64,000 bases of DNA, taken from the NCBI GenBank assembly GCA_905221615.1, contig CAJNDT010002780.1, forward strand, positions 558,001-622,000. Direction: 5' to 3'. A model generated the notes under the pieces. The model made no database searches, was not told where the DNA came from, and was given only the letters and a program-made list of their open reading frames with translations. Positions 39,411-59,415 of the stretch are shown here, one piece after another (the stretch's first letter is position 1; every line of letters begins with the position of its first letter). Origin of the DNA: Symbiodinium sp. CCMP2592. Taxonomy: Eukaryota; Sar; Dinophyceae; Suessiales; Symbiodiniaceae. A program made the translations under genes and the position numbers.

Positions 39411-39465
39411 GAGCAATGGTCACCGACGAGCGCAAGGCCAAAGCCGAGGCAAGACTTCTGGAATA
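39411..39465 (+). CDS. Exon-like island (AMVTDERKAKAEARLLEY)
   Basis: The acceptor TTTCCTGCCAG ends at 39410. The peptide AMVTDERKAKAEARLLEY is strongly helical. The donor is unclear because AT-rich DNA follows. Confidence 0.32.
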
Positions 39466-39469
39466 TGTT

Positions 39470-39580
39470 ACAGTAATATATTATACTCTAATGGAATATA
39501 TAATACAGTAGTGTATTCTAATGCGATGTATTAGAATACTGCAAAAACTGCATTTTATATCATGTTATGTTAGAATGTGA
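39470..39580. repeat. AT-rich stretch around TAATATATTATACTCTAATG
   Basis: Repeated TAATGGAATATA, TAATGCGATGTATTAGAATA motifs with partial dyad symmetry. Confidence 0.45.
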
Positions 39581-39636
39581 GAAAAGTGTTTCTGGTCTTT
39601 GGCTCCCCGGGATTGTAAGTATTAGTAGATGCTCTC

Positions 39637-39728
39637 ACATACCTTTGTGAGTAGGGAGTGGAAGAATGATAGTAATAGTAGTTATAATTGTACCCTATTC
39701 CTCCATTCCCTACTAACCAAAGGTAAGT
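39637..39728. repeat. Hairpin element family F3, copy 4
   Basis: ACATACCTTTGTGAGTAGGG at the left (diverged) and CCCTACTAACCAAAGGTAAG at the right (intact). The loop is GATAGTAATAGTAGTTATAA. Confidence 0.8.
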
Positions 39729-40524
39729 CTTGTGGGAGCTTAAGGTCGTCCTTGAGTCCTCGGAAGAGTGGAAGGGGTCTGATTCCGGGGAGGACTCTTT
39801 GTTCGGAGTTCCCCAGTACTAGTTTAGGGTTTAGCGTTTATAAGTACATTTCTAACACTCATTAGAAGCCAGAAAGTTGGAGCATCATTAGCCTCATGCC
39901 AGTAAGGTAAGGTATAGGGACTTCCAGCATGAATCATCCTGAAGCTATGTTCCAACTTTCTAGGGTCGACTGCAGCAACTGGCAGGCAAACACCAAGTTC
40001 TCTAGGAAGGCTTTCTCCTGGACCGGCAGGGTGCTCGGAAAAATCTATCTTTGAGGCGGCTCGGTGGGGTTTAAACAGTTTAGGGCTTTTGTGGGGCTTG
40101 GGAGCTGCTGTGTCAGGTGGAAGTACACAGAGTTCGTACAGTAGTGGTGGTGGCAGACCTTTTGCGGAGGTTCGCAATGTCAGGATCTTTGCGTGTGGAG
40201 TTGTGCTTGTGACCTGCTCGCGATTCCGACCAGCAATATGTTTTCATACACGGAACAATGATGATAGTCGTGATGTGATGTTCTTGCTTGCGGTTGCCGG
40301 ATCTGCATGATCTTTGTAGGGTGCTTTGGTAAGCTCTGCTTGCTTGATGCGGAGAAAGGCAAGAAGGGGCAGGTTGGTAGGTGATAGAGGACCCACCCGG
40401 GAAATCGAGACATGAGATAGGCCCAGGACAAGACAACAGCGGAAGGCAGCTGGAGACAAGTTCTAGAGCAAAAATCTGTGCATACATGAATATGTATGTA
40501 TTTGTATATATTCACGCATACAGA

Positions 40525-40650
40525 CACAAACTCTCTCTCTCTCTCTCTCGCTCTGTGTCTCTGTCTCCCTTTCTCTCTTGCTCGCTGACTCCCTCCCTCC
40601 CTCCCTCCTTCCCTCCCTCCCTCTCTCTCTGTCTCTCTGTCTGTCTTCAT
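40525..40650. repeat. CT/CCCT microsatellite
   Basis: CTCTCTCTCTCTCTCTC followed by CCCTCCCTCCCTCC and CTCTCTCTGTCTC. Confidence 0.85.
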
Positions 40651-40755
40651 AGATATGCTACACATACATATATAGTTAGACATCATGTAACTATATAGGT
40701 AGATATGCTCACATTCTGAAACCCTTGATCCCGATCCAGAACCCCAACCTTCTCC

Positions 40756-40860
40756 CTGGTGCTTAGTAGGGAATGGGGAAATGGATTCCCATAGTAGTCC
40801 CTGTATAATCCCCACTAATAGTCCCCATAATCCATTCCCCCATTCCCTACTAAGAACCAG
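40756..40860. repeat. F3-related hairpin element
   Basis: CTGGTGCTTAGTAGGGAATGG at the left pairs with CCATTCCCTACTAAGAACCAG at the right, nearly perfect. The loop differs from the main F3 family. Confidence 0.75.
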
Positions 40861-40869
40861 ACAGAGACT

Positions 40870-41165
40870 ATAGATAATTACCCTAAGACCCCTTGTAGAG
40901 CCCTTATCGAACCCTTATAGGACCATTTAAAGCAACCCTCAAAGGAACCCTATTCCCTAAACCCTATTCCCTAAACCCTAAACTCTAAACCCCAAACCCA
41001 AAACCCTAAACCCTATTCCCTACCAAAACCCAGACAACGGTCGAGGTCCCAGCGTGAAAATGGACTACTGCTGGTACAGGCAGGAGTGGCGAGCGGCCGC
41101 TGGCTCAAGAACGTGCTTTGGTTCTTAGTAGGGAATAGGGTTCCTTTAAGGTTCCTTTAAAGGGT
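40870..41165. repeat. Larger inverted repeat around AAAGGAACCCTATTCCCTA
   Basis: AAAGGAACCCTATTCCCTA at about 40947 pairs with TAGGGAATAGGGTTCCTTT at about 41132. Telomere-like and unique sequence lies between. Confidence 0.6.
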
Positions 41166-41172
41166 CCTATAA

Positions 41173-41515
41173 GGGCCTGTAAGTGGATTTAGGTTTTAGG
41201 GTTTGGGGTTTAGGGTGGGGTTTAGGGGTTTAGGGGTTTTGGGGGTTTAGGGGTTTAGGGGTTTAGGGGGTTTCGGGGTTTTGGGGGTTTAGGGGTTTTG
41301 GGGGTTTAGGGGGCTTGGGGTTTGGGGTTTAGGGGTTTTGGGGGTTTAGGGGTTTTGGGGGTTTAGGGGTTTAGGGGTTTTGGGGTTCGGGGTTTCGGGT
41401 TTGGGGTCTAGGGGTTTAGGGGTTTTGGTGTTTTGGGGGTTTGGGGTTTTGCGGTTTTGGGGTTTTAGGGGTTTAGGGGTTTTGGGGTTTAGGGGTTTGG
41501 GGTTTGGGGATCGGG
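41173..41515. repeat. G-rich telomere-like block (TTTAGGGG/TTTTGGGG)
   Basis: About 340 bp of TTTAGGGG and TTTTGGGGG units, G-rich on the + strand. The proline/lysine frame on the other strand is an artefact. Confidence 0.9.
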
Positions 41516-41879
41516 GATATGTACATGGGGTAGGAAGTACTGGCTGCATTTGCGGTTACTGCAGGAGCCGTTGCAAGGGATGGCACGCCGCTTGAGGTGA
41601 AGCATAATATGCATGTATGGCTAAGCACCTGAAGGTAAATATGTACTGTACTGAAATGCAATGCAAAGAGATGTACTGTAACATGCTGTAATGCCATGTA
41701 GTGTTGTGTAACGTGGTGTAGCGTACTGTAGGCCATTCGTGCAATAGTTAATGCAGCCAGAGTAAAGAGCTTTTTCTGTCTCAACCTCAGTCTCTAACAG
41801 TCTGCTTGTCTCTCTTTCTCTGACTTAAACCATGCGTGCACGCATGTATACATCAAGCTGTGCATGCTCGATGCACACA

Positions 41880-42743: not shown

Positions 42744-42780
42744 GGCTCAGCAGCGACTAAGACGACTCCACCGGTGAGTC

Positions 42781-45408
42781 GTGTCCCCCTCGTTCGGGGG
42801 CTGGTGTGGTGTGGTGCGGTTTGGTGTTGGGCGGTTTTTGGGCGGCTTGTGCGGGGCTTCTTCTGCTCTTCTGTCGTTGCTGTGGTCTTCAGGGCTACTC
42901 TGGCTGCACGCCATGGTCCTCGCGCCTCCGGGTCGAGTTCGGCGCCTTGCTCTGAATGGTGAGTACTTCATCACCCTGCGGCACAACAAAGTCCATGGAC
43001 TGCACCTCTGCAATGCAGCCGGTAAGGGGCTAAGCTTGGGCCGAGTCTGTTGCCTTCTTTGCAAACTTATGTGTCTGACATGTACAAGTTTCCAGGGCAG
43101 CGGGCCAACGCCAAGCACCTTCGGTCCGCCCGACCAGCCTGAACTGCCGCTTCTTTCTATTGCAAGTGACAGCCTGAGGCTCACCATCCCGACAATTGCC
43201 CAGAGCTCGTTCCTATGGCAAGCCACCCAGAGCCTGTCAATTGCAGCTGCTGCCTCTTCCAAGCCACAGATTGCACTGCCAAACTCGAGTAGCAGTGCTC
43301 ATCTACAGCTTGCAGCGCCTGTTACGACCCCACGACCCATTCTGCTCGACACACTGGATGACTATGCGTTCCTACCACCGCCGTGGCCTCAACCAGACAC
43401 AGCCGCCCCTCTGTGCAGCACATGTGCTGCAACTACCTCAGGTTACCAGGCATTATACATCTGGAGACCATGGACTGATGCATTGTCCGCTGCAGGATCC
43501 CCCCGCAGGTTAGGAGTGGCAGCGTCACCAAGGCTTACGCTTAGTAAAGGGAGCCCACACTGCATGCCACTGAAGATGTGCAGCACTCTGACATGTAGAT
43601 TGAACGTGTCTATCTGCTTGAGCCGGCTCGCTTCTGTGCCTCTTCCTTGTGCTCTGGGGTACTGTGCTTGTCTCAGCTCAGGGTGCCCTCCAGTTATACA
43701 CATCGTATGGCCCCATGCTCACTTCAGGTGCTGTGATATTACGGGTGACTGCCAAGCTCTCAATCGGCTGCCGCCGGAACCGCTACTTGAATGGTTTGTG
43801 AGCCTCCTCGGTCATGACTACAGGTTTGAGGAGGCCTCGCCGACTGCATGCTCCTCGGGACACCTACGTCCACTCCTGTGGCTTTGTCCTGTGGTGCTAC
43901 CAAGGTTCGAGGAGTCCTCGCCTGGTGCCCACTCCTCAGATCCTACCGACTGGCCCAACTCCCTCAGGGATCTGCCTGTCACCTTTCAGGTCTTACTCCC
44001 TCGCTTGGGCTTCGTCTATTGGACTCCAACCGTCCCTTGCTCAGACCTGCACCACATTCACAGTCTAGATCTTTTGCGAGGGAATGCAACACTGCATCAG
44101 ACACTAGCCCACTTTACCATCACCCAGCATTGGGCTCGATCAGATCAGCTACCTCTGGCTCCGTTTGTCCTCCCTCACAGAGGCAATCTCGACATCCGAT
44201 GGTCAAACGCAAGACGGGAGAGGGTGCCTCTACAGCTGGGCGAGGGCGTGGCAGAGGATCAGCCGCCACGGCCAAGGCCAAGACTCGGGCGACGGGCCGA
44301 ACAGGCACCAGTGACGAAACATCATCACCACCATCGCCCCCGTCGCCGTCAAGCCCCGAATCTGCGCCGACCGCATTGCCGAGCTCTCCCGCTGGTCCTC
44401 CGAGACCCACTCCGGCTACGTCGATGGCACCGCGTGGACCACCGCCACCAGTACCGGTCAATCTGCCAAGCCATGCCGCAGTCCCTCCTACGCCACCCAC
44501 GACCGAGACAAGGCCCAACACTTTGCCACCGGGCTTTACCGCTCGACCGGGTGATGCTCTTGCAGCCTCGGCCTCCCTCGGTGTCTCCAATATCACTGCT
44601 CCAGGAAACCCAGGAGTTGGACTGGCGATGGCTAGCCATGGAGGGGGTAGACCCTCGAACCCCAGGCCGTCATCACAGACTGCTGCCGGAGACTCGGGAG
44701 CTGTGGTACGAGTGCCAATACCTCCCATTGGAGTCCGTTTTGTCATCCGCCTCTCTGCCTTCCGTGAGCAACGCCCAGACAGCTGAGTGCCTGGACCAGA
44801 GTCTCTACTACAACACCTACTTCCTTGGGTCTTCGTGGCGGATCTACCCAGATGACACTCAGCCGGAGCATTCTATCATGAACTTGATTCGCCCTCTCTC
44901 TGACTCCTATTGGCGGCGAGTTCCCAAAATCTTGTCACGCGCAGAGACCTGCTGCTGCATGCACCCTGCCAATGACAGCTTTTGTTCCTGCTGCATTGCC
45001 CCGACCACTCAGGCAGTCAACGTGCTCCGACTGGCCCCAGGCGGGGTCTCTGTTGTCACTCTTTGGCAACTTTGGACTCAGCTTCTCGTGCTAGATGTTC
45101 TGCCCTCTCCCGGAACAGAGGCTCAATTCTCAGCCAGGACACCCCGGCACTCGCCACTGCAGGGGCCTAGCCATTGTCTCTTCGGTGAACCATGGCTGAC
45201 TCCGACTCGTCCTTTTCCAACATTGCCGATCAGACCCTCATTGCGCACCTCCAGGTTCCGACAGGTCGATCAGTGGTCACAGGTGCCATCCCCGCACCGA
45301 GGACTCCTGCGACTACCACTGTTGGCTCCTCGCCACCTGGACCAGCCAGGCGAACACGCCGAAGTCAGGACAACAGGGAGCGCTCCAGAAGCCGCAGCCC
45401 ACTGCTGA
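42781..45408 (+). CDS. Long 5' open frame of the LINE, 875 codons (ORF1 candidate)
   Basis: The frame is open from a GTG at 42781 (first ATG 42913) to TGA at 45408. It is cysteine-, leucine- and proline-rich and matches no domain I know. From about 44199 another frame looks more protein-like, so this frame may be translated only in part, may be spliced, or may simply be stop-poor because the DNA is C-rich. An ORF1-type RNA-binding protein would be expected in this place in a LINE. Confidence 0.35.
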   Translation: MSPSFGGWCGVVRFGVGRFLGGLCGASSALLSLLWSSGLLWLHAMVLAPPGRVRRLALNGEYFITLRHNKVHGLHLCNAAGKGLSLGRVCCLLCKLMCLTCTSFQGSGPTPSTFGPPDQPELPLLSIASDSLRLTIPTIAQSSFLWQATQSLSIAAAASSKPQIALPNSSSSAHLQLAAPVTTPRPILLDTLDDYAFLPPPWPQPDTAAPLCSTCAATTSGYQALYIWRPWTDALSAAGSPRRLGVAASPRLTLSKGSPHCMPLKMCSTLTCRLNVSICLSRLASVPLPCALGYCACLSSGCPPVIHIVWPHAHFRCCDITGDCQALNRLPPEPLLEWFVSLLGHDYRFEEASPTACSSGHLRPLLWLCPVVLPRFEESSPGAHSSDPTDWPNSLRDLPVTFQVLLPRLGFVYWTPTVPCSDLHHIHSLDLLRGNATLHQTLAHFTITQHWARSDQLPLAPFVLPHRGNLDIRWSNARRERVPLQLGEGVAEDQPPRPRPRLGRRAEQAPVTKHHHHHRPRRRQAPNLRRPHCRALPLVLRDPLRLRRWHRVDHRHQYRSICQAMPQSLLRHPRPRQGPTLCHRALPLDRVMLLQPRPPSVSPISLLQETQELDWRWLAMEGVDPRTPGRHHRLLPETRELWYECQYLPLESVLSSASLPSVSNAQTAECLDQSLYYNTYFLGSSWRIYPDDTQPEHSIMNLIRPLSDSYWRRVPKILSRAETCCCMHPANDSFCSCCIAPTTQAVNVLRLAPGGVSVVTLWQLWTQLLVLDVLPSPGTEAQFSARTPRHSPLQGPSHCLFGEPWLTPTRPFPTLPIRPSLRTSRFRQVDQWSQVPSPHRGLLRLPLLAPRHLDQPGEHAEVRTTGSAPEAAAHC
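44199..44786 (+). CDS. Basic, Pro/Ser/Ala-rich ORF in the LINE 5' region, 195 aa
   Basis: ATG at 44199, stop TGA at 44784-44786. Starts MVKRKTGEGASTAGRGRGRG, then a proline/serine/threonine-rich low-complexity chain. Basic RGRG and AKAK stretches near the start suggest nucleic-acid binding, as in ORF1 proteins. It overlaps the 875-codon frame in a different phase, and the codons here look more natural in this frame. Confidence 0.4.
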   Translation: MVKRKTGEGASTAGRGRGRGSAATAKAKTRATGRTGTSDETSSPPSPPSPSSPESAPTALPSSPAGPPRPTPATSMAPRGPPPPVPVNLPSHAAVPPTPPTTETRPNTLPPGFTARPGDALAASASLGVSNITAPGNPGVGLAMASHGGGRPSNPRPSSQTAAGDSGAVVRVPIPPIGVRFVIRLSAFREQRPDS

Positions 45409-45503
45409 GCCTGCTGCTGCCGAGCCTCCCACGGCCATGCCTACAGAACGGGTACAACCAGCCGCCTCACCAATGTCTTCGCAACCCGATGCATCGAGCA
45501 TGA
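45192..45503 (+). CDS. Candidate true N-terminus of the LINE polyprotein (MADSDSSFSN..)
   Basis: ATG at 45192 opens MADSDSSFSNIADQTLIAHL followed by a basic RTRRSQDNRERSRSRSP stretch. After about 45390 the natural-looking sequence moves to the main polyprotein frame (QKPQPTAEPAAAEPP). A shift of -1 (or +2), a small intron or a sequencing indel would join them. The annotated ATG at 45437 lies inside the continued chain, so the real start may be here. Confidence 0.35.
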   Translation: MADSDSSFSNIADQTLIAHLQVPTGRSVVTGAIPAPRTPATTTVGSSPPGPARRTRRSQDNRERSRSRSPLLSLLLPSLPRPCLQNGYNQPPHQCLRNPMHRA

Positions 45504-48500
45504 CACAGAAGCCACCTACGACAGCCTCCCCAGACACTGACCCGCCCCGGCCGGGCGCCATGTCAGACTTGCCAAAGGTGGGACCTGCAGAGGGGCCGTC
45601 TTCCACTGTACCGCAGGACCTCCCGTCCCAGACGGTGGCAGATGTCAATGCAGGCGCCAGCAGCTCCAAGAGCAAGCCAGTCCGGGCCAAGACTAAGACG
45701 AAGGCACGAGCTGCTATCAAGAGCACCCGGACTCGCCGAAGTGGAGCCACTCCTGCCGATGCTTATCCCATGGTGCCGGACATCTACGATCCCTTCCACA
45801 AACCAGATCCCGCCAAGCGCCCAAGAGGGCGAAGTAAGTGGCTGGTCACAGAGACCGATGCTGATCCACCTCCTGCCACTGCTACCAACGTGACTTCAGG
45901 AGAAACCTCCACGAGTGTACAGCTGTCGTCCTCCTCACGAGATGCACCAAAGTCAGTGAGCGGATATATGCATTGCTTTGGCCGTTCTGCTTCTAGACTC
46001 TGCTTTGGGCTGCAATTGCGAGTTCGTCGCATCAAGATTCCAGCACCGCCTCCGTTCCTGAGGCACAACCGACGCGCTCGCTTGCGCCGACCCAAGCGTG
46101 ATTCAAGGTGCCCTCTGCAATGTCTCTACTCCTTAGGCCACACTATATCCTCTTATATGACTCAAGGCCTTGCTGACCTTATGGAGAACCTCATGAAAGC
46201 AGACAATGTTTCCATTGGAAGGCCTTGGGCTCAGGCACTGTCTGACCTCAGCCACTGCTACTCTGTAGCCAAGACTTTGTGCTTTTCATGCTGGGACTGC
46301 CTGTCCCTCCTCTTTGTTCCCAGTCGATCTAATCCGACACCACACGAAACCACGCCGACACTGATTGTTATGCCAGTCGCTGAGCCCGGTCCCAAATCCG
46401 GGCATGGAGGAGCAAATGATTCTGATTCGAATATCACAAGCTTATGCAGACACTTTGTCCATAAAGTGACCTTCCGGCACGAATTTTGTGTCTCCTCCAC
46501 TGAGCCGAGGGTTGAGTGCTGGAACCCACCGCACTCTGAACCTACACTGTTCTCGCACAAGCCGATCTCGAGAATGCTAGCTTGTATTGAAAACAGTGGA
46601 GGGAAGCTCGGGATTTCCCATCACGGCGCTGCTTCACGAAGCCGCCACCCATCATGCACTACCTCTATCTCTGATATTTGCATCGCGCCGTGCACGGACA
46701 CTTCAGCCTCCATGACCGATGCTGCAACTGCTACACGAAGCTCAGCTCCGTGTCACAAAACTCCTGCAATTAGACGCACACGCCCAACCCCTCTACCCGC
46801 AGCTTGGGACATCTGTGCAGCTCCGAGACTTGCCGTTATGCTTTTCACCAAAACTTTCGGACGACTCGCCTTAGCCTGTACTCTGTGGACTACTCCCACA
46901 CTCTCTGCGGCCACCGCCTCCACCGGCCCCTCTTCTCCCTTGGTCCCCACCCCACAGGGGAAACGAGCCTACAACCGGGCGGTCCACCGGGCAACTACCA
47001 GTCCATTGCAGGGCACGTTTTACAGGGGCAGATGGTGTTCGTTACACACCCTTCGCGCACAAGCCATCAACAGCACCCGTACAAGCCAAACGGCGCGCCT
47101 CCCTGTCAGTTCCCAAGTCGCGACTCAGACTGACTCCTCTCGCCTCCGGTGTGTGACTTATAACATTGGTGGGCTCAGTCAGGATGCCTATGCAGAGTTG
47201 ATGCTTTTCTTAGCTGCACAAGACCCTGCAATCCGCCCCCATATAATTTTCTTGCAAGAAACGCACTGGCAATCGGTCTCTGACTACTCTACTGACCAGT
47301 GGCACATTGTCTCCACTCCTGCGGTGCCTGCAGCTTCTGGCGGAGTCGCCATTCTGATCTCGACTGATCTATGTTCTGCCGCTTCCATCCTCACGGCCTC
47401 ACCCATCCAAGGCAGACTTCTGCACGCCCGTGTTCAACTCAGCACCGAATGCCAGCTCGACCTGATCAATATGTATCAGAAAATCCTGCTGCCTGGACAA
47501 ACACGAGGCTCGGATCAACCTACTGCCACTTCACGCCAAATCCGGCGAGAGGTCTGGCGCTCTTGGCGCCAGCTCCTTGGTAGCCTTCCGCGCAGAAGCC
47601 TATGGATAATTGCCGGGGATTTTAATACCAACTTACGCCCTAATGCCAGCCTGATCGGTTCCAGAGCAGCTCCCTACATGAAGAGATCACAACCGGACTC
47701 CCATGAAATGATGGATATCATACACGACTTGAGGTTGCTACACCTCAACTCATGGACCAGGCGAGCGAGGGCCACCTATCGGTCAAAGCAGGGCAACACC
47801 TTAATTGACCATGTATTCTTGCGCCAAGATCAGTGCGACACCACAGCTCGAAAGGCAGGTCCCGTTGACTGGCCTCTCACACGCTGGCGAGGGGGCGGCA
47901 GGCATTGGCCTGTTCACTTTAGTGTTTCGGTGCCCACTAAGCCATATACTCCCAGGCGCTCTCTGTCACAGTCCCCACTCGATAAAGCCGAGCTCCTTCG
48001 AGTCTGTCGCTCAGCTGATGACCCCAGGGCACTGGCCTTTCGACAAGATGTGCGCGATTGGCTCGCTGCTAATCCCTGTCGTACCATCGCAGAAGTCAAT
48101 CAACATCTTCATACAACATCTATCCGATTCTTCCCCTCTACTCAGCCGACCCCCAAGACCGGTGCGTGGCAACATCCCACAGTGTCCTTGTCTGTTCGAC
48201 ACATGTGGCAAGCCTACCGAGACTGGAAACAACCCCCACCAGGCCGGCAACGACTCTTTTCTGCCTGGCGGGCGTACAGTCAGTTTAAGCGAGCACATCG
48301 CGAATTCAGGCGAGCCACACGGGCAGCCAAAACTGCCCAGATGCAGGCCCTCACTGTGCGTATGCAGGAAGCCACAGACCAAGGAGATGTCAGGGCACTC
48401 TTTCGTCTTGCTGCCAGTCTCTCCCCGCAGAAAAGACGCCCTCGTCTTCAACTGCGAGGCCCTCAGGGCGAGCTATGGACACCCCAGCAACAGTTAGACT

Positions 48501-51500
48501 GCTTGCGCCGTCACTATGAGGCCCTGTATGCATCCCCGGGCACCACCTGCCCCACAACTTCATCCACAGGCCTGCTCTCCCCCGCCACATCTCCAACAGT
48601 GTCCTTCCCTGACTTCACGGTCACTGATGTTCTCGAAGGCCTGTTGAAATTGCCGCCGCACAAGGCTGCACCTCCAGGTAAGGCGACGAGTAGCTCCTGG
48701 GTCCTATGTGCTCGTGAACTCACACCATGGCTTCATTCTCAAATCTCGCATCTTGAACAGGTGCCATCCGACTGGCGCGATGCTTGGATGAGTTTGTTGC
48801 CGAAAGTGACACAACCGATGAAACCGAAGGATCTACGACCGCTGGGCATCACTGAAATTTCTGGACGGGTTGCCGCTGGCCTCGTGCAACGGGAGTTACG
48901 GCCTTACTTGATTGAGCTCCTAGCGGCGGAGCCGCAATTCGCGTATTCACCGGGTCGATCAACAGACGCAGCTCTGTCACGCGTCTTCGCACATTGTGAT
49001 AAGGTCATTTCAATGTGTACCCCTGCACCGTACAACATTCTCGCATCACGCTTTGCGCCCACTGCCCAGCCCCTGGCATCAGGGGGAGGCCTGCAATTGA
49101 GCTTAGATCTTTCAAACGCGTTTGATGTGCTACCATGGACTTTGATTGATAGAGCACTACGGCTTGCCAAAGTACCGGCATCAATTCGTGAGCTGGTTAT
49201 CAGCTGGCACAAAGGCCTTACCTACCACTTGACGATCCAGGGCGCGACGGCGCGGATCCCAGCAGGACGCGGTCTCCGCCAAGGATGCAGAATCTCTCCA
49301 CTTGTGTGGAGTATGGCAACAGTTGTGCTATTGCAAGACCTCGGTGACAGAGTAGGAGACCATAATTGGGTTAAAGCCATGATCACGGCTTTCGCTGACG
49401 ACATTCATGGAGGTGAGCTGATTACCACCACTGCACAACTGGATAAGCTCCTCCTTAACCTCGGGCACCTCCTTGATGTGCTGATCGATGCTGAGCTCAA
49501 CATCAATACCCTCAAGTCGGCCTTCTTGTTACGCTTTACGAAGGGTTTCGCTACCGCCTGGAAGAGACGTCACATTCAGCAGACCAAGGCCGGACAACTT
49601 CTGAGTTTGCGCACCCCGGCCGGACGCTCATTCACTATTCCAGTGAAAGATGAACACAAATACCTAGGTCTGATGATCTCATATTTGCAGCCCGCTGCTT
49701 GTTCCATCACACACCGCATACAAGCAGCATGGACTGCCTACGGGCACCTCAGGCCGCTCCTCACGTGTGCTAATGCCCCTCGATTGAGTTTACGACTCAA
49801 ACTGTGGGCGGCATGTATTCCTGCTGTTCTTACTTACGGCTTGCACGTGTTGAATCTGACGGACAAACAGATAGCACGCCTCCAAGCAGTTGCTACGAGG
49901 CAGCTTCGTGCTGTAGCCAAAGCCCCCTCTCATCTCACGCATGAAACGACCGCAGCTCTACATGAGCGTCTCAAGGTCAGACCTGTACGAGACATTCTGC
50001 AGAAGTCACAAGAACGCCTACTTGCCAACTTACGGCAGTTACAGTGTGGAGGTGCTATTCAACAAGATACCGTAGACTGGTTGCAACAACACCAGCTCCT
50101 TGTCGATCCGACAATTCCTCCAGAATCCCTGCCTGGACCGCCCCCTATATCCACATTCACTTGTCCAGATTGTCAAGAGGTCTTCGAAAATTATAGGCTT
50201 TTCAGAATGCATCAGTCTACAGCACATGGGCTCAAGGCCCACGCCAGAAGACACCAGGTATGCTTTGATCGCTTGAAGCATTCAACTGCAGGTCTACCCA
50301 TATGTAGACTCTGTCACAAACAGTTCTCCAGGTGGACTGGCCTCCGTGCGCACATCGAACAGGGTTGGTGTCCGCACCTTGACCCGAACCTCACTGCCGT
50401 GTCATCAGGTATAGCCCCAGCCCCTGCCATCACTGTTCCGAGGCCAGAGCTCGTTGCTACTCCTGCCTGTCCAGGTCCAGCTGCTGACTTGTCCATTGCT
50501 CTCAGTGCCGAATGTGAATCCACCCCTGCCGCGCAACCGATCACATCGGCCGTCATTATACAGGAGGCCCCTACATCTCCGACACTGGATGGTCCCGCTG
50601 CTGCACCTGCTACCTCCTCAGAATCAGCTTCCATGCTTGTGCCACAGGATGCAGCAGCAGAAGCCCTCGGCTTACACAAACCTGGCTCGGGTACTCAGGC
50701 TGAATCTCATGATCCACAATGGCAAAAACGAGTCGGCCCTGCTGTCACAACCCCAATGGTACAACGTGTTGAACTCATGCGACAGCTTCGTACCCGGGGC
50801 TGGCAGGCCGTTATGCAAGATCCTGAACTTCGTGATGAGGTCCGTCATCACTGTCCTGAGTGCTCACAGTGGTGCTCCTCTCCAGCCGGCCTCAAAGTCC
50901 ATCTGTCACATGAACACCCACAGTGGCTTGCCTCGCAGGATTTTATTCTCAAGAGAGCGCGCCTGCTCCGAAGAACCCTCACGAAGCCCTGTCATTTCTG
51001 TCTTGCAACACGCTTCGATCTTCAACAACACTGGAAGCGCTGTCCTGTCATTACCATTGCCTGCTACCTTGAGCACAGAAGCCATGACGTTACCTGCCAC
51101 AGCCAATCAGGCAGCCCCGACTCCATCGCAGACGGAAGGTCCGCCCAATGCCAGACAGCAGGAACTGGAGATGTTCGGCCACCTATTCTCCACCTTCAGC
51201 CACACGGCAGCGAGTGGTCAAGCTGCGAACAAGCGTCCGAGACCGGAGCAGAAGGATACCGTGATGACTCCTGTACCCAGCGAGTCCTCGCAGCCACGGC
51301 AGACGACCATGGCATCAACTCCGAAGGGCAAGGGCAAAGCCAAAGGCCAGGGCAAGAACGCGGGCAAGGGCAAGGGCAAAGGAAAATCCAAGAACAAAGG
51401 TCAGCCGCCCTCCTCCGAGATGTCTCCTCACAAGGATCCCTGGAGCCTCGACACCTGGACGGACCCCGATTCTTGGAGCACCAGCAGCTGGTCCACGCCG

Positions 51501-53053
51501 AGCTCCATGTCAACGGAGCACTCCCACAGCCTACTGATGCAGGTGGCCAAGATGGCACTTCGCCACGAGCAGCAGCTCCACACTCTCCAGCAGGACACCA
51601 GACTATACATGTACTTCAAGCCCAATCAGGAGTACTCCGTCCTTCCCTTGATGCTCCAGCTCGCGACGGAGTGGCGCCAGACTATGGAGGCAACTCCAGA
51701 AAAACTGACCATGTCACTCAGGGAGCTCATGATTCGGGGGCTACTCAAAGAGTGGAAGACCCGACTTCAGGCCTTTCAGCAGAGCGAGGAGACCAAGGCC
51801 ACGGCACAGCGACTTCAATGGTTGGACAGCTTGGGCCACTGGAACCACATGCACTGGTGTCCGACCAAGCAGGAATTGGTGCTGACAGAACGGACAGAGT
51901 CTCGGTCCACAGAGGAGATCTTGAACGTGATTCAAGAAATGGAGGAGCTGATCACCGGGGACTCCATCAAGACCTTCAAATCAATGCGACAGCTCCGGGA
52001 GTCTTACCAAACGGATTGGGTGCAGTTCCTGGTGGAAGTTCAGATACGAGGGCCAGGCGACAAATTGTGGACTATTTTCAACGAACTCATCGGCAGTGCA
52101 GCGCTCCACCTGCTCGCCGCCCGGCTTCGACGGGACCGTCACCCGTACTCGGGCCTTGCTCAGAGCATCCAGGCCCAGGTCTGGTGAGGTCCGCCCCTCA
52201 ATGCTCTCTCCTTGGATTCCCTCTGCAATCAGTCAGCTTTGCAAATCCGAGTGCCACCACGTGCTACATGAATAGTGCCTTACACGCCATCCTTCATGTA
52301 CTTGCTACCCTTCAGCCGAGTGATCAGGCCGCTCTTGGGCAACTGTGTCACCTTTGGGGAGCAATCCAGCGCCAGCCTCGGAACTTTGATCCAAGCCATA
52401 ACTTGCATTGGGTGATGCTGATTAGCCCATGGCCGCGGTTATTTATGCAAAATGATGCTGCCGAATTCCTTGCTCATATGCTGTGCAGACTGCGGCTACC
52501 CTCCGTCGAGGGAAGGTGGGAAGCCCGCCGGATGGATGCAGGCCACGGTTTACAGCTACATGACGAGGGCCATCTGCATCATGCACTACCCCTGCCGATT
52601 CAGGGGCAAACCAGCCTAGCCGATTGCGTTCGGGCCTGGCACAAGCAGTCCAAGACTCATGCACTTGCCCCGTATCAGCGCATCAACACCCTTGGCATAC
52701 AACTCCTCAGGTTTCGCACTCGTGCAATGCACACTCAGCGCCGACGACCTGTTGGTAAGGATCTCAGACCCATCACTGGTCTCCTTGATGACATCCATGT
52801 CCCACAATTCTGCAATACACACAATCTTGATGTTCATCCTCGTCGATTTAAGGCTGCAGCTCTGATTTTACACCGGGGAGCGACCGTCGACCAGGGACAC
52901 TATATCTGTGTTTGGAAAAGTGCCGATACTCTGCAGCTTCTTGACGACTCACGTACAGCTCGAGCTTGCACTGCAACAGAGATTGATGCTATTCCTGCAG
53001 AAACTTATTTGATCTGGTATGTCGCATGCCAGGAAGACGGCGAGATGGCTTAG
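45437..53053 (+). CDS. LINE polyprotein: APE endonuclease, reverse transcriptase, C2H2 fingers, USP protease
   Basis: 2,538 codons from ATG 45437, ending TAG. Residues 1-170: Pro/Ser/Thr-rich with basic patches. About 575-830: exonuclease-endonuclease-phosphatase fold, with CVTYNIGGLS, FLQETHW (E608), AGDFNTN (D728, N730), LIDHVF (D791, H792) and RHWPV near 823. This nicks target DNA. About 1090-1400: reverse transcriptase, with LSLDLSNAFD (D1224), GRGLRQGCRISP and AFADD (D1321, D1322). It copies the RNA at the nick. C2H2-like fingers start at C1576, C1623, C1806 and C1852. About 2265-2530: USP (peptidase C19) with NPSATTCYMNSALH (C2276), QNDAAEFL, DQGHYICVW (H2488) and LLDDS (D2503/D2504). 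It would remove ubiquitin from proteins. Residues about 1885-2250 are low-complexity, and in that stretch another frame is the protein-like one (see 51084-52187), so the chain is probably made by frameshift or splicing rather than in one straight frame. Confidence 0.8.
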   Translation: MPTERVQPAASPMSSQPDASSMTQKPPTTASPDTDPPRPGAMSDLPKVGPAEGPSSTVPQDLPSQTVADVNAGASSSKSKPVRAKTKTKARAAIKSTRTRRSGATPADAYPMVPDIYDPFHKPDPAKRPRGRSKWLVTETDADPPPATATNVTSGETSTSVQLSSSSRDAPKSVSGYMHCFGRSASRLCFGLQLRVRRIKIPAPPPFLRHNRRARLRRPKRDSRCPLQCLYSLGHTISSYMTQGLADLMENLMKADNVSIGRPWAQALSDLSHCYSVAKTLCFSCWDCLSLLFVPSRSNPTPHETTPTLIVMPVAEPGPKSGHGGANDSDSNITSLCRHFVHKVTFRHEFCVSSTEPRVECWNPPHSEPTLFSHKPISRMLACIENSGGKLGISHHGAASRSRHPSCTTSISDICIAPCTDTSASMTDAATATRSSAPCHKTPAIRRTRPTPLPAAWDICAAPRLAVMLFTKTFGRLALACTLWTTPTLSAATASTGPSSPLVPTPQGKRAYNRAVHRATTSPLQGTFYRGRWCSLHTLRAQAINSTRTSQTARLPVSSQVATQTDSSRLRCVTYNIGGLSQDAYAELMLFLAAQDPAIRPHIIFLQETHWQSVSDYSTDQWHIVSTPAVPAASGGVAILISTDLCSAASILTASPIQGRLLHARVQLSTECQLDLINMYQKILLPGQTRGSDQPTATSRQIRREVWRSWRQLLGSLPRRSLWIIAGDFNTNLRPNASLIGSRAAPYMKRSQPDSHEMMDIIHDLRLLHLNSWTRRARATYRSKQGNTLIDHVFLRQDQCDTTARKAGPVDWPLTRWRGGGRHWPVHFSVSVPTKPYTPRRSLSQSPLDKAELLRVCRSADDPRALAFRQDVRDWLAANPCRTIAEVNQHLHTTSIRFFPSTQPTPKTGAWQHPTVSLSVRHMWQAYRDWKQPPPGRQRLFSAWRAYSQFKRAHREFRRATRAAKTAQMQALTVRMQEATDQGDVRALFRLAASLSPQKRRPRLQLRGPQGELWTPQQQLDCLRRHYEALYASPGTTCPTTSSTGLLSPATSPTVSFPDFTVTDVLEGLLKLPPHKAAPPGKATSSSWVLCARELTPWLHSQISHLEQVPSDWRDAWMSLLPKVTQPMKPKDLRPLGITEISGRVAAGLVQRELRPYLIELLAAEPQFAYSPGRSTDAALSRVFAHCDKVISMCTPAPYNILASRFAPTAQPLASGGGLQLSLDLSNAFDVLPWTLIDRALRLAKVPASIRELVISWHKGLTYHLTIQGATARIPAGRGLRQGCRISPLVWSMATVVLLQDLGDRVGDHNWVKAMITAFADDIHGGELITTTAQLDKLLLNLGHLLDVLIDAELNINTLKSAFLLRFTKGFATAWKRRHIQQTKAGQLLSLRTPAGRSFTIPVKDEHKYLGLMISYLQPAACSITHRIQAAWTAYGHLRPLLTCANAPRLSLRLKLWAACIPAVLTYGLHVLNLTDKQIARLQAVATRQLRAVAKAPSHLTHETTAALHERLKVRPVRDILQKSQERLLANLRQLQCGGAIQQDTVDWLQQHQLLVDPTIPPESLPGPPPISTFTCPDCQEVFENYRLFRMHQSTAHGLKAHARRHQVCFDRLKHSTAGLPICRLCHKQFSRWTGLRAHIEQGWCPHLDPNLTAVSSGIAPAPAITVPRPELVATPACPGPAADLSIALSAECESTPAAQPITSAVIIQEAPTSPTLDGPAAAPATSSESASMLVPQDAAAEALGLHKPGSGTQAESHDPQWQKRVGPAVTTPMVQRVELMRQLRTRGWQAVMQDPELRDEVRHHCPECSQWCSSPAGLKVHLSHEHPQWLASQDFILKRARLLRRTLTKPCHFCLATRFDLQQHWKRCPVITIACYLEHRSHDVTCHSQSGSPDSIADGRSAQCQTAGTGDVRPPILHLQPHGSEWSSCEQASETGAEGYRDDSCTQRVLAATADDHGINSEGQGQSQRPGQERGQGQGQRKIQEQRSAALLRDVSSQGSLEPRHLDGPRFLEHQQLVHAELHVNGALPQPTDAGGQDGTSPRAAAPHSPAGHQTIHVLQAQSGVLRPSLDAPARDGVAPDYGGNSRKTDHVTQGAHDSGATQRVEDPTSGLSAERGDQGHGTATSMVGQLGPLEPHALVSDQAGIGADRTDRVSVHRGDLERDSRNGGADHRGLHQDLQINATAPGVLPNGLGAVPGGSSDTRARRQIVDYFQRTHRQCSAPPARRPASTGPSPVLGPCSEHPGPGLVRSAPQCSLLGFPLQSVSFANPSATTCYMNSALHAILHVLATLQPSDQAALGQLCHLWGAIQRQPRNFDPSHNLHWVMLISPWPRLFMQNDAAEFLAHMLCRLRLPSVEGRWEARRMDAGHGLQLHDEGHLHHALPLPIQGQTSLADCVRAWHKQSKTHALAPYQRINTLGIQLLRFRTRAMHTQRRRPVGKDLRPITGLLDDIHVPQFCNTHNLDVHPRRFKAAALILHRGATVDQGHYICVWKSADTLQLLDDSRTARACTATEIDAIPAETYLIWYVACQEDGEMA
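51084..52187 (+). CDS. Lys/Gly-rich, helical ORF overlapping the LINE polyprotein, 367 aa
   Basis: ATG at 51084 (MTLPATANQAAPTPSQTEGP..), stop TGA at 52185-52187. After a short lead it has KGKGKAKGQGKNAGKGKGKG, a W/S/D-rich part (DPWSLDTWTDPDSW) and then about 220 residues of ordinary helical protein (..LLMQVAKMALRHEQQLHTLQ.., ..LATEWRQTMEATPEKLTMSL..). It is one base out of phase with the polyprotein, whose own frame here is glycine/glutamine/histidine-rich and looks like a shadow. The basic part could bind RNA or chromatin. It may be a separate protein or the link between the zinc fingers and the USP domain. Confidence 0.6.
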   Translation: MTLPATANQAAPTPSQTEGPPNARQQELEMFGHLFSTFSHTAASGQAANKRPRPEQKDTVMTPVPSESSQPRQTTMASTPKGKGKAKGQGKNAGKGKGKGKSKNKGQPPSSEMSPHKDPWSLDTWTDPDSWSTSSWSTPSSMSTEHSHSLLMQVAKMALRHEQQLHTLQQDTRLYMYFKPNQEYSVLPLMLQLATEWRQTMEATPEKLTMSLRELMIRGLLKEWKTRLQAFQQSEETKATAQRLQWLDSLGHWNHMHWCPTKQELVLTERTESRSTEEILNVIQEMEELITGDSIKTFKSMRQLRESYQTDWVQFLVEVQIRGPGDKLWTIFNELIGSAALHLLAARLRRDRHPYSGLAQSIQAQVW

Positions 53054-53183
53054 AGTAGAGTGTAGTGCATTCGCCATTGACTACCTTGTCATGGCCAAGT
53101 GCCCATAAGAGGCACCGTGTCGCAACATGCGACATGCTCAGACTCGCTTGGCGAAGACCCTCCTTCGTTGCGTCCGCAAGAAA

Positions 53184-53436: not shown

Positions 53437-53532
53437 AAATGGGGGTTTCCGAAAACAGGGGACCCAATATCGTGCCCTAAAAAGTAGGATCCGGACCCCA
53501 AATATGGTATCCCAAAATTTCGGAAGAAACCC
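53437..53532. repeat. Hairpin element family F1, diverged
   Basis: GGGGGTTTCCGAAAACAGGGG at the left and CCAAAATTTCGGAAGAAACCC at the right. The centre is CTAAAAAGTAGGATCC. Confidence 0.7.
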
Positions 53533-53539
53533 CAAGCCT

Positions 53540-53605
53540 TAAATCCCAAAACCCTAAACCCTGAGCCCTAAACCCCAAAACCCTGAACCCCAAACCCTGA
53601 ACTCC
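53540..53605. repeat. Telomere-like CCCTAAA block, degenerate
   Basis: CCCTAAACCCTGAGCCC and CCCCAAACCCTGAA units. Confidence 0.7.
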
Positions 53606-53717
53606 CTTGTCCTGATCCGGCCCTAGGCTCGAGATCCGATGATTCCGGTGCGATCCCTGCGGCAGTACTGAGCCCCGGCATAGGGTTTACGGGTTTAGGA
53701 AGTTCGTGGTTAATATC

Positions 53718-53815
53718 GAGGCCTAAATACTTACCAATATGCTCTTTTAGGGTTCCTTATTATGATCATACTATAAAGGAGACCAAAACCCCATTCACAT
53801 TATTAAGCCCACTAC
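53718..53815. repeat. Hairpin element family F2, diverged
   Basis: GAGGCCTAAATACTTACCAA at the left, TTTAGGGTTCCTTATTATGA in the centre and CACATTATTAAGCCCACTA at the right. Confidence 0.65.
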
Positions 53816-54515
53816 GTTAGCTACTGCCTCGAGTGCAGGATAAGGATTGGGTCTTAGGGAACCCGAAGCCCAAACTCTCAAGAACCATCGGCAGTCGCTG
53901 CCTCAGTGCAGCCAAGGTCTGCCTCAATAGTTCGTCACGAGACGCTCGCCTTAGGAGCTGCTTTCAGCCTTTCGTCTCCTGCACGCTTTTCAGGGTTCAG
54001 GGTTTAAGGTTAAGGGGTCAGGGTTAGAGTTTTCGGGAGGTGCGAAAGCCGCAGGCGTTGAGAGAGCTGAAGCCAGTGGCTCGTCAGGTCTCGTGATTGA
54101 AAGCCAGTGCACCAACTGGTTCGGATCGGCGTAGTCTCGGCACAGGCCTTTGCAACTTGCCGCCCACGGCCCCGGAAACGATGCCCTAAAGCCCTAAACC
54201 CTAAACCCTCCCCCCCCTGTGCAACGCAGCATCCCGTTTCCTGCCTTAAAGCCGGCCTCGGCCTGCGCGATGGGCCTCTTCCCTTTGGAACGTTTGAGCT
54301 GCTTCCGTGCTTGTGTCATCTGTGTCGTATAGAGGAGCGCGTCTGGATGGTTCGAGTAAAAAGGCTCCCAGGGTCGCCAGGACACTCCGTAAATTTGAAA
54401 ACGTTCTGCTCATGGATCTCTGAAGGCAGACTTTGTGTCAGGACGAGGCCAGCTTGCATGAAACTGCTGGACTCTAGACGTGGAGCTTTTCCGGTACCTT
54501 TCGTAACCCTGATGT

Positions 54516-54599
54516 TCGGCTCCAGCACGGCAAAGAAGGAACGGAGAGTAGCTTTGAGGTTTCATTGCTACCCGTACCACCCTGTGCGAGCTTCTTGGC
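54516..54599. repeat. Dispersed repeat, copy 1 (about 80 bp)
   Basis: TTCGGCTCCAGCACGGCAAAG..ACGGAGAGTAGCT is closely matched at 61353-61430. No coding or RNA function is recognised. Confidence 0.6.
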
Positions 54600-54693
54600 A
54601 CTTTCTGTATCAGCGTGTTTGCGTGCACCGCGGAGCACCCCTTAACCCCACATCCAGTCGCTCAACCCTGAACCCTAAACCCCAAAAGCCCTA

Positions 54694-54788
54694 CTATAGG
54701 GGCCTAAATCATTACTATCTTGGGGGTTCCTTATCAGAAATATAGTATAATGGGCCTCAAAACCCTATTCTTATTAAGGCCCCTATAT
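54694..54788. repeat. Hairpin element family F2
   Basis: ATAGGGGCCTAAATCATTAC at the left, TTGGGGGTTCCTTATCAGAA in the centre and TCTTATTAAGGCCCCTATA at the right. Confidence 0.8.
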
Positions 54789-54794
54789 AATTAT

Positions 54795-54990
54795 AGAATA
54801 GAACCCTACTACTGTAGAACCCTACTATAGATCCCTTATAGACCCCTTTAAGGAACACTTTAACGGAACCCTATTCTAATTATTAAGGCCCCTATAATAA
54901 AGCCCTAAGCGAAGTCGCTCCAGCTAAACCCTAAAACCCTAAACCCTAAAACCCTAAACCCTAAAGCCTAAACCCTACACCCATTCCCTA
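54795..54990. repeat. F2 end fragment and telomere-like CCCTAAA block
   Basis: CCCTTTAAGGAACACTTTAA, then CTAATTATTAAGGCCCCTAT (an F2 right end), then several CCCTAAA units (54925-54975). Confidence 0.7.
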
Positions 54991-55007
54991 CTAACCAAAG
55001 GTAAGCA
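54981..55007. repeat. Solo right arm of an F3 element
   Basis: CCATTCCCTACTAACCAAAG followed by GTAAG, without a matching left arm nearby. A telomere-like block sits where the rest should be. Confidence 0.7.
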
Positions 55008-55534
55008 AAGCGCCGGTCCTTGAGGCGATGTGCCGCTTCACCCCAGAGCCTCAGCCGGAGTCGGTGGGCTGCTCGAACCAGGCGCGGGCCCGCAATGGTC
55101 TAACATAGCAGCCTTATAATTAATGACTACCTATACTATTTGTGGCTGTTCCTCATTATTAATTATGGTAGATTTGGGGTTATAAGTAATTATAGGTATG
55201 GTTACATTATTTGTAACGCTAGTTACGACGTCCGGAATGGTCTAGGGCAGGTTTACTGTCAGGGGTCGCTGTAACGTTACTAGGAGGCCGTGAGGCTCAC
55301 GGTTCAGGTCTTTTGGGGCTTAGCGTGAGGTGTTCGGCTTCAGATCACCCTAAACCCTAAACCCTAAAGCCTAAAACCTAAACCCTAAACCCTAAACCAA
55401 TCGAGGAACGAACGGAGCTTCAAGATGCAAGACTCCACAAGTTGATGACGTTCCGCAGCAGACCTTCCTTTCCGCGTTAACCCTAGACCCTAATCCCTAG
55501 ACTCTGAACCCTAAACCCAAGGTAAGCATTGAAG

Positions 55535-55640
55535 GACTTACCACAACTAACAATAATAAATAATAACAACAATAATAACAATAATAGTAATAATAATAAT
55601 AACAGTAATAATAATCATAATACTCCCTAAACCCTAAACC
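55535..55640. repeat. AAT triplet microsatellite
   Basis: AATAATAACAACAATAATAA-type units. Confidence 0.8.
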
Positions 55641-56620: not shown

Positions 56621-57619
56621 GATCGATGGGCCCCGAAACCCCATCCCGGAGGTCAAACCTGGAGAAGCTCATCGCGGCGGCTGTGGAAGCCACGCAGGAA
56701 GCATCGACTAACAGTTCCTTGAAGAGGCCAGGCATTCCCCAGAGAACCCAATACCCCATGAAGGAATATACCTTACATCATAATGATTTCAGGTATAATC
56801 CTCAATTAAGGGGTATTGGGGTCTCTGGGTCCCCTGATCTTGCAATGGGGCGTAAGATGATCTGAAACCCTGAACCCAAAACCGTCACCATTGCCTTCGA
56901 GACCGGCTAAGCACCTGCTGGGCAGAAAGATGGAGCGAGGTCCTTGAATTCTTCCAGTGTTTAGTGCCAGGGCATTTAGGGTTTAGACCTATCGCTTATC
57001 ACTGTGTTCCGTAATCCACCTCCTCAAAGGGAGGGTTTAGGGGTGATGTTCAGGACTGGAATGCATCGCACCCTCAGCACCCAACCCCAGACCCTAATCA
57101 GGAGAGTTCCGACAAGCCAAGACCCCTGGGACATGAAGCAGAAGTCTGCCTTGCCGAACCCGTGAATGCTAGGGTCCGGTAGAGCGTCCCGGACTTTCGC
57201 AACGCTAAAATCCCACCATCTGATCAGCTGAATAGGCCTCTCCTTCCCTGACACTGGCTGTCTAGAAAAGGACTTTCCGCAGCGGTGAGGACTCTGATTA
57301 CACGCTTCCATGTTCTGTTTGGCTTTGTCAGTCTGAGTCAGAAGCCACGTGAAACGCATCGTGCTTCAAAGCGACAAGACCTCGACACAACGGTACGCTG
57401 ACCCCCCAAAAGAACTTTTGTTCCGAACCTTAGCGTCTTTATCCTTTCCCTACAAAGCTCTTCTACCCTGGGTCGGAGGCGAATTCGCCAGCGCTTGCAC
57501 AAGAAACTGGGCTCCATCCTCTCGAAGAAAGACTTTGCAGCTGCAATGGACAAGCACGGGGGCTCAGGAATTTTAACCCTTCTGCACCGCTCGCAGCAAC
57601 AGCGACCGTACTGCTGCCC

Positions 57620-57747
57620 CTGCTCGAGCGCTCCTGCTGCTGCTTCTGCTGCTGCATCAGCTGCTGCTACTGCTGCTGCTGCTGCTGCTGCTGCTACTAG
57701 TGTTGGTGTGTTGGTGCTGGTGCTGGTGCTGGTGTTGTTGTTGTTGT

Positions 57748-57782
<35 letters not shown>

Positions 57783-57874
57783 TGGCTGTTTCTGCTGCTG
57801 CTACTGCTGCTACTTCTACTAACTACTACTACCACTACTACTCCTCCTCCTCCTCCGACTCACTCCTACTCCAC

Positions 57875-57905
<31 letters not shown>

Positions 57906-58091
57906 GACGACTACTACTACTACTACTACTTCTACTACTACTACGACTACTACTACTACTACGACTACTACGACTACTACGACTACTACGACTACTACGA
58001 CTACTACGACGACTACTACTACTACTACTGCTGCTACTACTACTACTACTACTACTGCTACTACTACTACTACTACTACTACTAGTAGTAG

Positions 58092-58140
<49 letters not shown>

Positions 58141-58453
58141 GCCACTACCACTACCACTACCACTACCACTACCACTACCACTACCACTACCACTACCACT
58201 ACCACTACCACTACCACTACCACCACCACCACTACCACTACTACTGCCTTTACCACCACCACTACTGCTACTGCCACCGCCACCGCCACCACGACCAGTA
58301 CCACTTCCACTACCACTGCCACTAAGATCACCACTACCACCACAACCACCATCACGACGACGACGCCGGCTGCTGCTGCTGCTGCCGACGCTGCTGCTGC
58401 TGCTGCTACTACTACTACTATTGCTGCTGCTACTACTACTGCTGCTGCTACTA

Positions 58454-58543
<90 letters not shown>

Positions 58544-58565
58544 GACTACCACGACTACAACAACA

Positions 58566-58603
<38 letters not shown>

Positions 58604-58614
58604 TAATGCTACTC

Positions 58615-58645
<31 letters not shown>

Positions 58646-58650
58646 GACTG

Positions 58651-58686
<36 letters not shown>

Positions 58687-58920
58687 CCTCTGCTACTGCA
58701 TGAGCTACTGCAGCGGCTACTGTTTCTGTAAGGCTACTGTGACTGCTACTGCTACTGCTGCCGCTGCTCCTGTTGCTACTAGTACTACTGCAACCTGCTG
58801 CGGCTGCTGCTGCTGCTACTGCCCCTTCTCCTGCTTCTGCTACTGCTGCTGCCACTGCTACTGCTACTGCTACTGCTGCTGCTGCTACTACTACTACTAC
58901 TACTACTACTACTCCTACTC

Positions 58921-59006
<86 letters not shown>

Positions 59007-59240
59007 GTTACTGCTACTGCTACCACTACTGCTACTGCTACGCTGCTACTGCTACTGCTACTGCAATCACGACTGCTACTGCTGCTGCTGCTGCTGCTGC
59101 TAGTGCCACTGCCACTGCCAGCTGCTGCTACTTCGACTGCTACAGCTACTGCTATTGCTACAGCTACTGCGCTTGCTACTGCTACTGCGGCTGCTACACG
59201 CTACTGCTACTGCTGCTACCGCTGCTGCTGCTGCTGCTGC
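57620..59240. repeat. Long CTG/CTA/CCA triplet microsatellite
   Basis: About 1.6 kb with hardly a break: CTG/CTGTTG (57640-57800), CTA (57870-58140), CCACTA (58140-58330), CTG/CTA (58370-58450), CTA (58450-58690), CTG/CTA mix (58740-59240). Long Leu, Val, Tyr, Thr or Ser frames on both strands come from the repeat. Confidence 0.95.
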
Positions 59241-59415
59241 TGCCGCAGCTACGACAACGAGGAGGAGGACGACGATGCCGACTGCTACGGTTTCCGTAGT
59301 ACGTGGTATCATTCCGTTGCTTGATGCTCTTCGGTGTTACGTCTAGCCTAGTAGTGCTTGCATTATCCGTCATTATCCTTGGTAGTCGAGAACTTACGGT
59401 CGAACTTGAGGCGCA

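Follow-up and report, generated by a model that had tools for sequence, protein, structure and literature searches.

A ubiquitin-specific protease domain in a LINE of Symbiodinium, and an overprinted reading frame ahead of it

What use would a retrotransposon have for a ubiquitin-specific protease (USP)? The question is raised by a 64,000-nucleotide stretch of the dinoflagellate Symbiodinium sp. CCMP2592 (contig CAJNDT010002780.1, positions 558,001 to 622,000, forward strand), here called the window and numbered from its first letter. Within it lies a long interspersed nuclear element (LINE) whose ORF2 protein, composed of endonuclease, reverse transcriptase (RT) and zinc fingers, ends, in frame, in a cysteine protease domain of the USP class (peptidase C19). 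How ubiquitin controls retrotransposons is usually studied with the host in view; an old USP with an intact active site in a LINE ORF2 would, if that is what this is, amount to a counter-defence that the RT protein carries within itself. It also extends the list of deubiquitinase (DUB) and ULP classes that transposons have recruited.

The domain has the catalytic Cys, His and Asp/Asn of USPs, in the USP order. They fall within the motifs NPSATTCYMNSALH (residues 2270–2283), DQGHYICVW (2485–2493) and LLDDS (2501–2505), and QNDAAEFL occupies residues 2338–2345. An earlier reading of this DNA, made from the sequence alone, had recognized three USP boxes in this order, with Cys 2276, His 2488 and Asp 2503/2504, and all of these positions proved to be right. 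It had also proposed a search with the Pfam UCH profile (PF00443), and the profile does match: over residues 2274–2513 when the whole of ORF2 is searched (E 4e-7, 30.3 bits), and with 38.2 bits when the domain is searched in isolation, against a curated cut-off of 23.9 bits. The predicted model, compared by Foldseek and VIA, has the USP fold, and the top matches among solved structures are USP12/USP46, by sequence profile and by fold alike. From these cellular enzymes the USPs of the element and its relatives differ in being shorter and, in 10 of 11 full domains, in lacking any CxxC pair. Such pairs form the zinc ribbon that is common, though not universal, in the fingers of USPs; the window domain has none, nor do nine of the ten others, the exception being the database protein P0017, with one CFVC.

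That the protease belongs to the element, as the sequence-only reading held, is borne out by its frame and by its position. Endonuclease (PF03372), RT (PF00078) and USP (PF00443) share the single frame of ORF2, for which seven Pfam families are listed in all. The element itself is bounded by two copies of a 16-bp target-site duplication (TSD), which occurs only these two times on the + strand of the window, and because the copies lie where they do (Table 1), the element is about 10.4 kb long with the USP inside. An APE-type endonuclease that shares its ORF with an RT, a TSD, and no long terminal repeat mark it as an APE-type LINE; no long terminal direct repeat was found among the best 20 of the 24 repeat families in the window. 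Chance was considered as the source of the ORF or its motifs and rejected: an open frame as long as ORF2 arose in none of 500 order-1 Markov sequences, and there are the Pfam matches besides.

Table 1. Features of the element and their positions in the window
Feature	Positions	Strand	Remarks
5' copy of TSD, ATGTATGTTTTCATAA	42728–42743	+	16 bp, exact repeat
LINE element	42744–53183	+	span between TSD copies; about 10.4 kb, no long poly-A tail
Possible ORF1	42778–45408	+	upstream open frame, 876 codons, without Pfam match
ORF2 as listed	45437–53053	+	2538 aa, single open frame
APE-type endonuclease domain	47153–47827	+	PF03372, E 2.7e-10
RT domain (AFADD)	48824–49675	+	PF00078, E 4.8e-17
Two C2H2-type zinc fingers	50156–50359	+	sub-cut-off Pfam matches in window; Cys/His kept in P0001
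Third zinc-finger-like stretch (CPECSQW...H...H)	50846–50923	+	Cys/His kept in P0001
USP-frame linker, third finger to USP	51054–52235	+	open throughout
Overprinted ORF, +1 frame	51084–52187	+	367 aa, KG-rich (KGKGK-rich) stretch and folded domain; conservation, back-translation, openness
Folded domain of overprinted ORF	51501–52184	+	long helix, then alpha/beta
USP (peptidase C19) domain	52202–53050	+	residues 2256–2538; profile, motifs, predicted fold
Catalytic Cys 2276 codon	52262–52264	+	invariant, 11/11
Catalytic His 2488 codon	52898–52900	+	kept, 10/11
Asp 2503/2504 codons	52943–52948	+	invariant, 11/11
3' untranslated region	53054–53183	+	130 bases
3' copy of TSD, ATGTATGTTTTCATAA	53184–53199	+	16 bp, exact repeat

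Is the fusion peculiar to this copy? A database search with the USP part of ORF2 returned one match, P0001 (E 8.1e-10), a cluster of 65 member sequences that has RT and UCH in one protein; it is 27% identical to the window protein across the endonuclease, the RT and the fingers, and between the third finger and the end of the aligned USP the figure is 24%. Searching with the window and P0001 together, with words drawn from the RT part, gave at least 38 more proteins, 8 of 38 with a precomputed UCH assignment, from the 7995 candidates that shared most words and were alone scored. P0001 itself does not appear in that list, even though the query contained part of its sequence. The USP of P0001, used as a query, recovered only P0001 among 1540 candidates; since it missed USP-bearing relatives that do exist, word-seeded searches by USP alone are nearly blind here. 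Pattern scans of contigs added nothing: 132 matches in viral contigs with query A1 and 8 in genome contigs with ORF2 yielded no confirmed case, and P0008 produced no match in the viral contigs at all.

A hidden Markov model (HMM) built from the 11 full USP domains was run against 40 proteins (P0001–P0039 and that of the window). It places a USP in 18 of them, namely its 11 builders and seven with partial domains; P0035 shows a degenerate trace with filters off (E 1.9e-4). The other 21 should not be read as elements without a USP: by eye, five stop where the overprinted frame described below ends, and most of the rest before the linker has been passed. The sources named for the relatives are Symbiodinium CCMP2592, CCMP2456, S. 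microadriaticum and S. necroappetens, and the closest proteins (75–92% identity over parts) come from Symbiodinium sp. CCMP2592 (Dinophyceae). Two relatives, P0014 and P0018, appear by eye to have additional finger-like Cys/His segments ahead of the USP.

The USP-bearing relatives include some that are 24–39% identical to the window in RT. Proteins that differ at about 70% of positions keep a USP at the same place, with its catalytic residues nearly always intact, and because such distant relatives retain both domain and active site, the element has probably used its USP for a long time. Sixteen columns are invariant among the 11 USPs, including N15, C21, Q83, D85, H224, G232, D248 and D249, and the catalytic His, column 233, is kept in ten. 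Pairwise USP identities run from 18% to 70%, and from 18% to 33% outside one closer group of four. Distances between RTs and between USPs are strongly correlated (r 0.922, exceeded in 0 of 20,000 permutations), and the window groups with P0005, P0007, P0008 and P0011 in both trees. The domain is a conserved part of the ORF2 protein, and probably a catalytic one, and the simplest reading of its history would be one old capture of a USP followed by joint descent, with the reservation that the deepest splits give no proof of it. The sequence-only reading had named, as its own undoing, either the failure of the UCH profile to match or a domain confined to this copy and read in from a host USP exon; neither is the case. 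Divergent relatives (P0001, P0005, P0007, P0008 and others, at the RT identities just given) carry the same fusion, nothing was found in favor of such a chance event, and it is refuted, as near to impossible as we can judge.

Several observations weigh against this account, and against the function favored for the USP below. The correlation falls when close pairs are left out, to r 0.823 (12 of 20,000 permutations) with 10 elements and 0.605 (42 of 20,000) with nine, and when three of the closer four are dropped, to 0.354 (991 of 20,000) with eight. P0020 joins P0014/P0018 in the RT tree (0.986), but its partner by USP is P0017 (0.830). Among the Symbiodinium gene models, five (P0002, P0003, P0004, P0019 and P0022) end with the overprinted frame and have no USP. 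In P0001, finally, Arg replaces the catalytic His (SGRY) while Cys and Asp are kept, so DUB activity is not universal in the family.

The USP is not the only unusual feature of ORF2. Over the linker that precedes it lies a second gene, in the +1 frame, which the sequence-only reading overlooked. The frame is open from after a stop at 50412 to a stop at 52185, and has an ATG at 51084. Of the 39 database proteins 14 contain its product, at E-values down to 1.6e-221, and all of these are Symbiodinium by name; in the window it occupies a frame of its own, with endonuclease, RT and USP in another. Back-translation was used to look for it in relatives whose protein continues without a break in the USP frame: the +1 reading of each linker, all codons weighted by usage, was scored against a profile of the overprinted protein, with 40 shuffles per linker as the null. 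Thirteen proteins were listed and 12 were testable, P0014 having no anchor. The window served as positive control, scored against a profile made without it, and gave z 121. Eight of 11 relatives exceed z 7: P0008 (98.2), P0007 (86.7), P0005 (82.2), P0006 (64.5), P0009 (59.5), P0013 (14.8), P0001 (7.6) and P0020 (7.2). Three do not surpass their best shuffle, P0018 (2.5), P0028 (2.3, cut) and P0023 (-0.1, short linker), and the +2 reading, for comparison, reaches no more than 2.2 in any of the 12. The possibility that the frame is a quirk of one copy was rejected on these two counts of 14 and eight.

What the overprinted protein is can be said with less assurance. Searches of PDB and Pfam with its folded domain gave nothing significant, and Foldseek no match at E 0.001 or better; rows 1, 2 and 4 of the fold list, none of them at E 0.001 or below, are structures of LINE-1 ORF1p, which has a coiled coil followed by an RRM and a C-terminal domain. 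We infer that the +1 frame is translated by itself, starting at its own ATG, into an RNA-binding protein that is perhaps ORF1p-like. The overprinted frame may also be the reason that gene models of Symbiodinium fuse pieces of these elements across frames, to judge from the proteins rather than from exon maps.

Which of the two overlapping frames constrains the other? Residues ~1882–2250 of ORF2, a fast-drifting linker, overlie the +1-frame gene. When the overprinted protein was held fixed and its codons redrawn, the USP frame stayed open in 0 of 20,000 draws, whichever of two codon usages was applied (mean 18.0 or 10.4 stops), and 36 control windows of the endonuclease–RT part had 13 to 24 stops at the same offset. 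With the linker protein fixed instead, the +1 frame stayed open in 25 or 280 of 20,000. These simulations make it unlikely that the open USP frame is a mere by-product of the overprinted gene; openness of the +1 frame is, by itself, weaker evidence than its conservation. Among P0005, P0007 and P0009, identities are 54–75% in the linker, 83–89% in RT and 62–89% in the USP (over only 111 residues where P0009 is involved), and within each pair the linker is less conserved than the USP. Both frames of the overlap thus seem to be kept, and the linker looks like a tether that needs to stay open, laid over a gene that holds the sequence. Unless we misjudge it, the overprinted frame would give a retroelement example of conserved dual coding. 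More tentatively, and with more doubt than confidence, we picture a dinoflagellate LINE lineage that makes both a DUB-armed RT, through a tether in the USP frame, and a nucleic-acid chaperone, the ORF1p-like RNA-binding protein encoded in the +1 frame inside the 3' part of ORF2.

What might the USP do? The earlier reading offered protection of the RT complex from decay or processing of the polyprotein; protection appears to fit best, and processing has fared poorly. By a slight inclination we favor a USP that removes ubiquitin from its own protein or from partners in the ribonucleoprotein. Made as the C-terminal end of the ORF2 product, the domain would strip ubiquitin (or a ubiquitin-like tag) from either, and this de-tagging would shield the retrotransposition complex from the proteasome. 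LINE proteins tend to work on their own encoding RNA; given such cis preference, a DUB acting in cis would protect the very copy encoding it, and its retention would be explained because it favors its own copy. A single Cys change, with ORF2p half-life and retrotransposition as readouts, offers a direct test. The proposal parallels one made for DUB-bearing Helitrons (PMC9741609) and differs from the repair idea put forward for Ginger (PMC2836005).

The tagged substrates might be host proteins at the insertion site, instead: ubiquitinated chromatin, for example, or repair proteins, whose deubiquitination would let target-primed reverse transcription finish. USP1 bound to FANCD2 and Ubp8 of SAGA on a ubiquitinated nucleosome are, by their entry titles, among the nearest solved chains, and a repair role for transposon Ulp1/OTU domains was proposed for Ginger (PMC2836005). 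The same lists hold USP2, USP7, USP14, USP21 and USP30, however, with quite other roles; at about 20% identity structural nearness says little about substrate, and no targeting partner is known. We consider host targets unlikely, while granting them some weight. That the domain merely binds ubiquitin, or is a decaying passenger with no catalytic need, is improbable. Such a pseudoenzyme would account for the missing His in the 65-member P0001 cluster, for the trace that is all P0035 retains, and for the faster divergence of the USP than of RT (70% versus 89% identity in the closest pair); it sits badly with the retention of Cys and Asp in all 11 domains and of His in ten, at the low USP identities found outside the closer four.

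Processing, in which the USP would free RT, fingers and itself in the manner of coronavirus papain-like proteases, strikes us as quite improbable. In its favor, the domain is C-terminal and preceded by a long variable linker; the viral fold list includes, from rank 26 on, replicase polyprotein proteases; and [LIVM]xGG occurs 45–65 residues ahead of the USP in four of 11 proteins (window, P0005, P0008 and P0017). That stretch is partly dictated by the other frame; the evidence is weak, if not nothing. LRGG is found in none of the 11, and strict LxGG in five at no common position; P0001 and P0011 have no [LIVM]xGG either, and in P0014, P0017, P0020 and P0023 this looser motif falls at one and the same RT motif, within the fold of the RT. 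None of the Pfam families listed for ORF2 is a ubiquitin-like domain, and cellular USPs require folded ubiquitin.

Cellular relatives aside, how does the self-protecting DUB we favor compare with what other mobile elements carry? NeSL and Utopia LINEs also bear a cysteine protease of the ubiquitin/SUMO pathways, but theirs is Ulp1-like, N-terminal and accompanied by a restriction-like endonuclease (PMC4640811), whereas the protease here is a USP by profile and fold, is C-terminal, and goes with an endonuclease of the APE type. Helitrons and Helentrons carry VTD or OTU DUB domains, the VTD ones assayed, which their authors suggest keep proteins needed for transposition from the proteasome; these are rolling-circle DNA transposons, however, with other DUB classes (PMC9741609). 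Ginger1 has OTU/Ulp1, and a Trichomonas vaginalis protein joins C19 to transposase_11, a DNA transposase and not a LINE, in a single mention in the discussion of that source (PMC2836005). Closest in host is SymbioLINE-Dnmt, a Symbiodinium LINE that likewise has an APE-type endonuclease, RT, TSDs, no poly-A and an extra enzyme; that enzyme is a DNA methyltransferase, in ORF1, rather than a USP, and the word ubiquitin is absent from the main text (PMC5890265). The two upstream frames scanned here gave no Pfam match of any kind, and hence no DNA methyltransferase. Dualen/RandI elements are said to carry OTU proteases. RNase H is what PMC4640811 names for them, and Ulp1 for NeSL/Utopia. Neither RNase H nor the restriction-like endonuclease that Dualen/RandI have beside APE is among the seven families of our ORF2, where a divergent one could be missed. 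Known before, then, are DUB/ULP domains in mobile elements and methyltransferase-bearing Symbiodinium LINEs. The USP in a LINE, of which the earlier reading knew no description, and the overprinted gene are apparently new, so far as a limited search can tell: it found no report of either in the open-licence PMC literature, in part among the best matches only (20 of 88, 20 of 29, 12 of 266 and 12 of 20), with subscription papers and Repbase outside it.

The 5' half of the element is less well defined. Several relatives align with ORF2 from about 46961, and its true start may be further downstream than listed. Of 2000 order-1 Markov sequences, none was open over the length of the 876-codon upstream frame. 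Inside this frame, and in frame 0 rather than frame 1, an ORF at 44199–44786 encodes a product similar to the N-terminal end of P0016 (36% over 151 columns; E 1.6e-11 with low-complexity masking off); this may be a second overlap, or an effect of composition only. On both sides of the element, at 39235–41530 and 53530–55640, there are clusters of CCCTAAA-like, telomere-type repeats in both orientations, and a long CTN/ACT trinucleotide-like array occupies 57618–59252 of the window.

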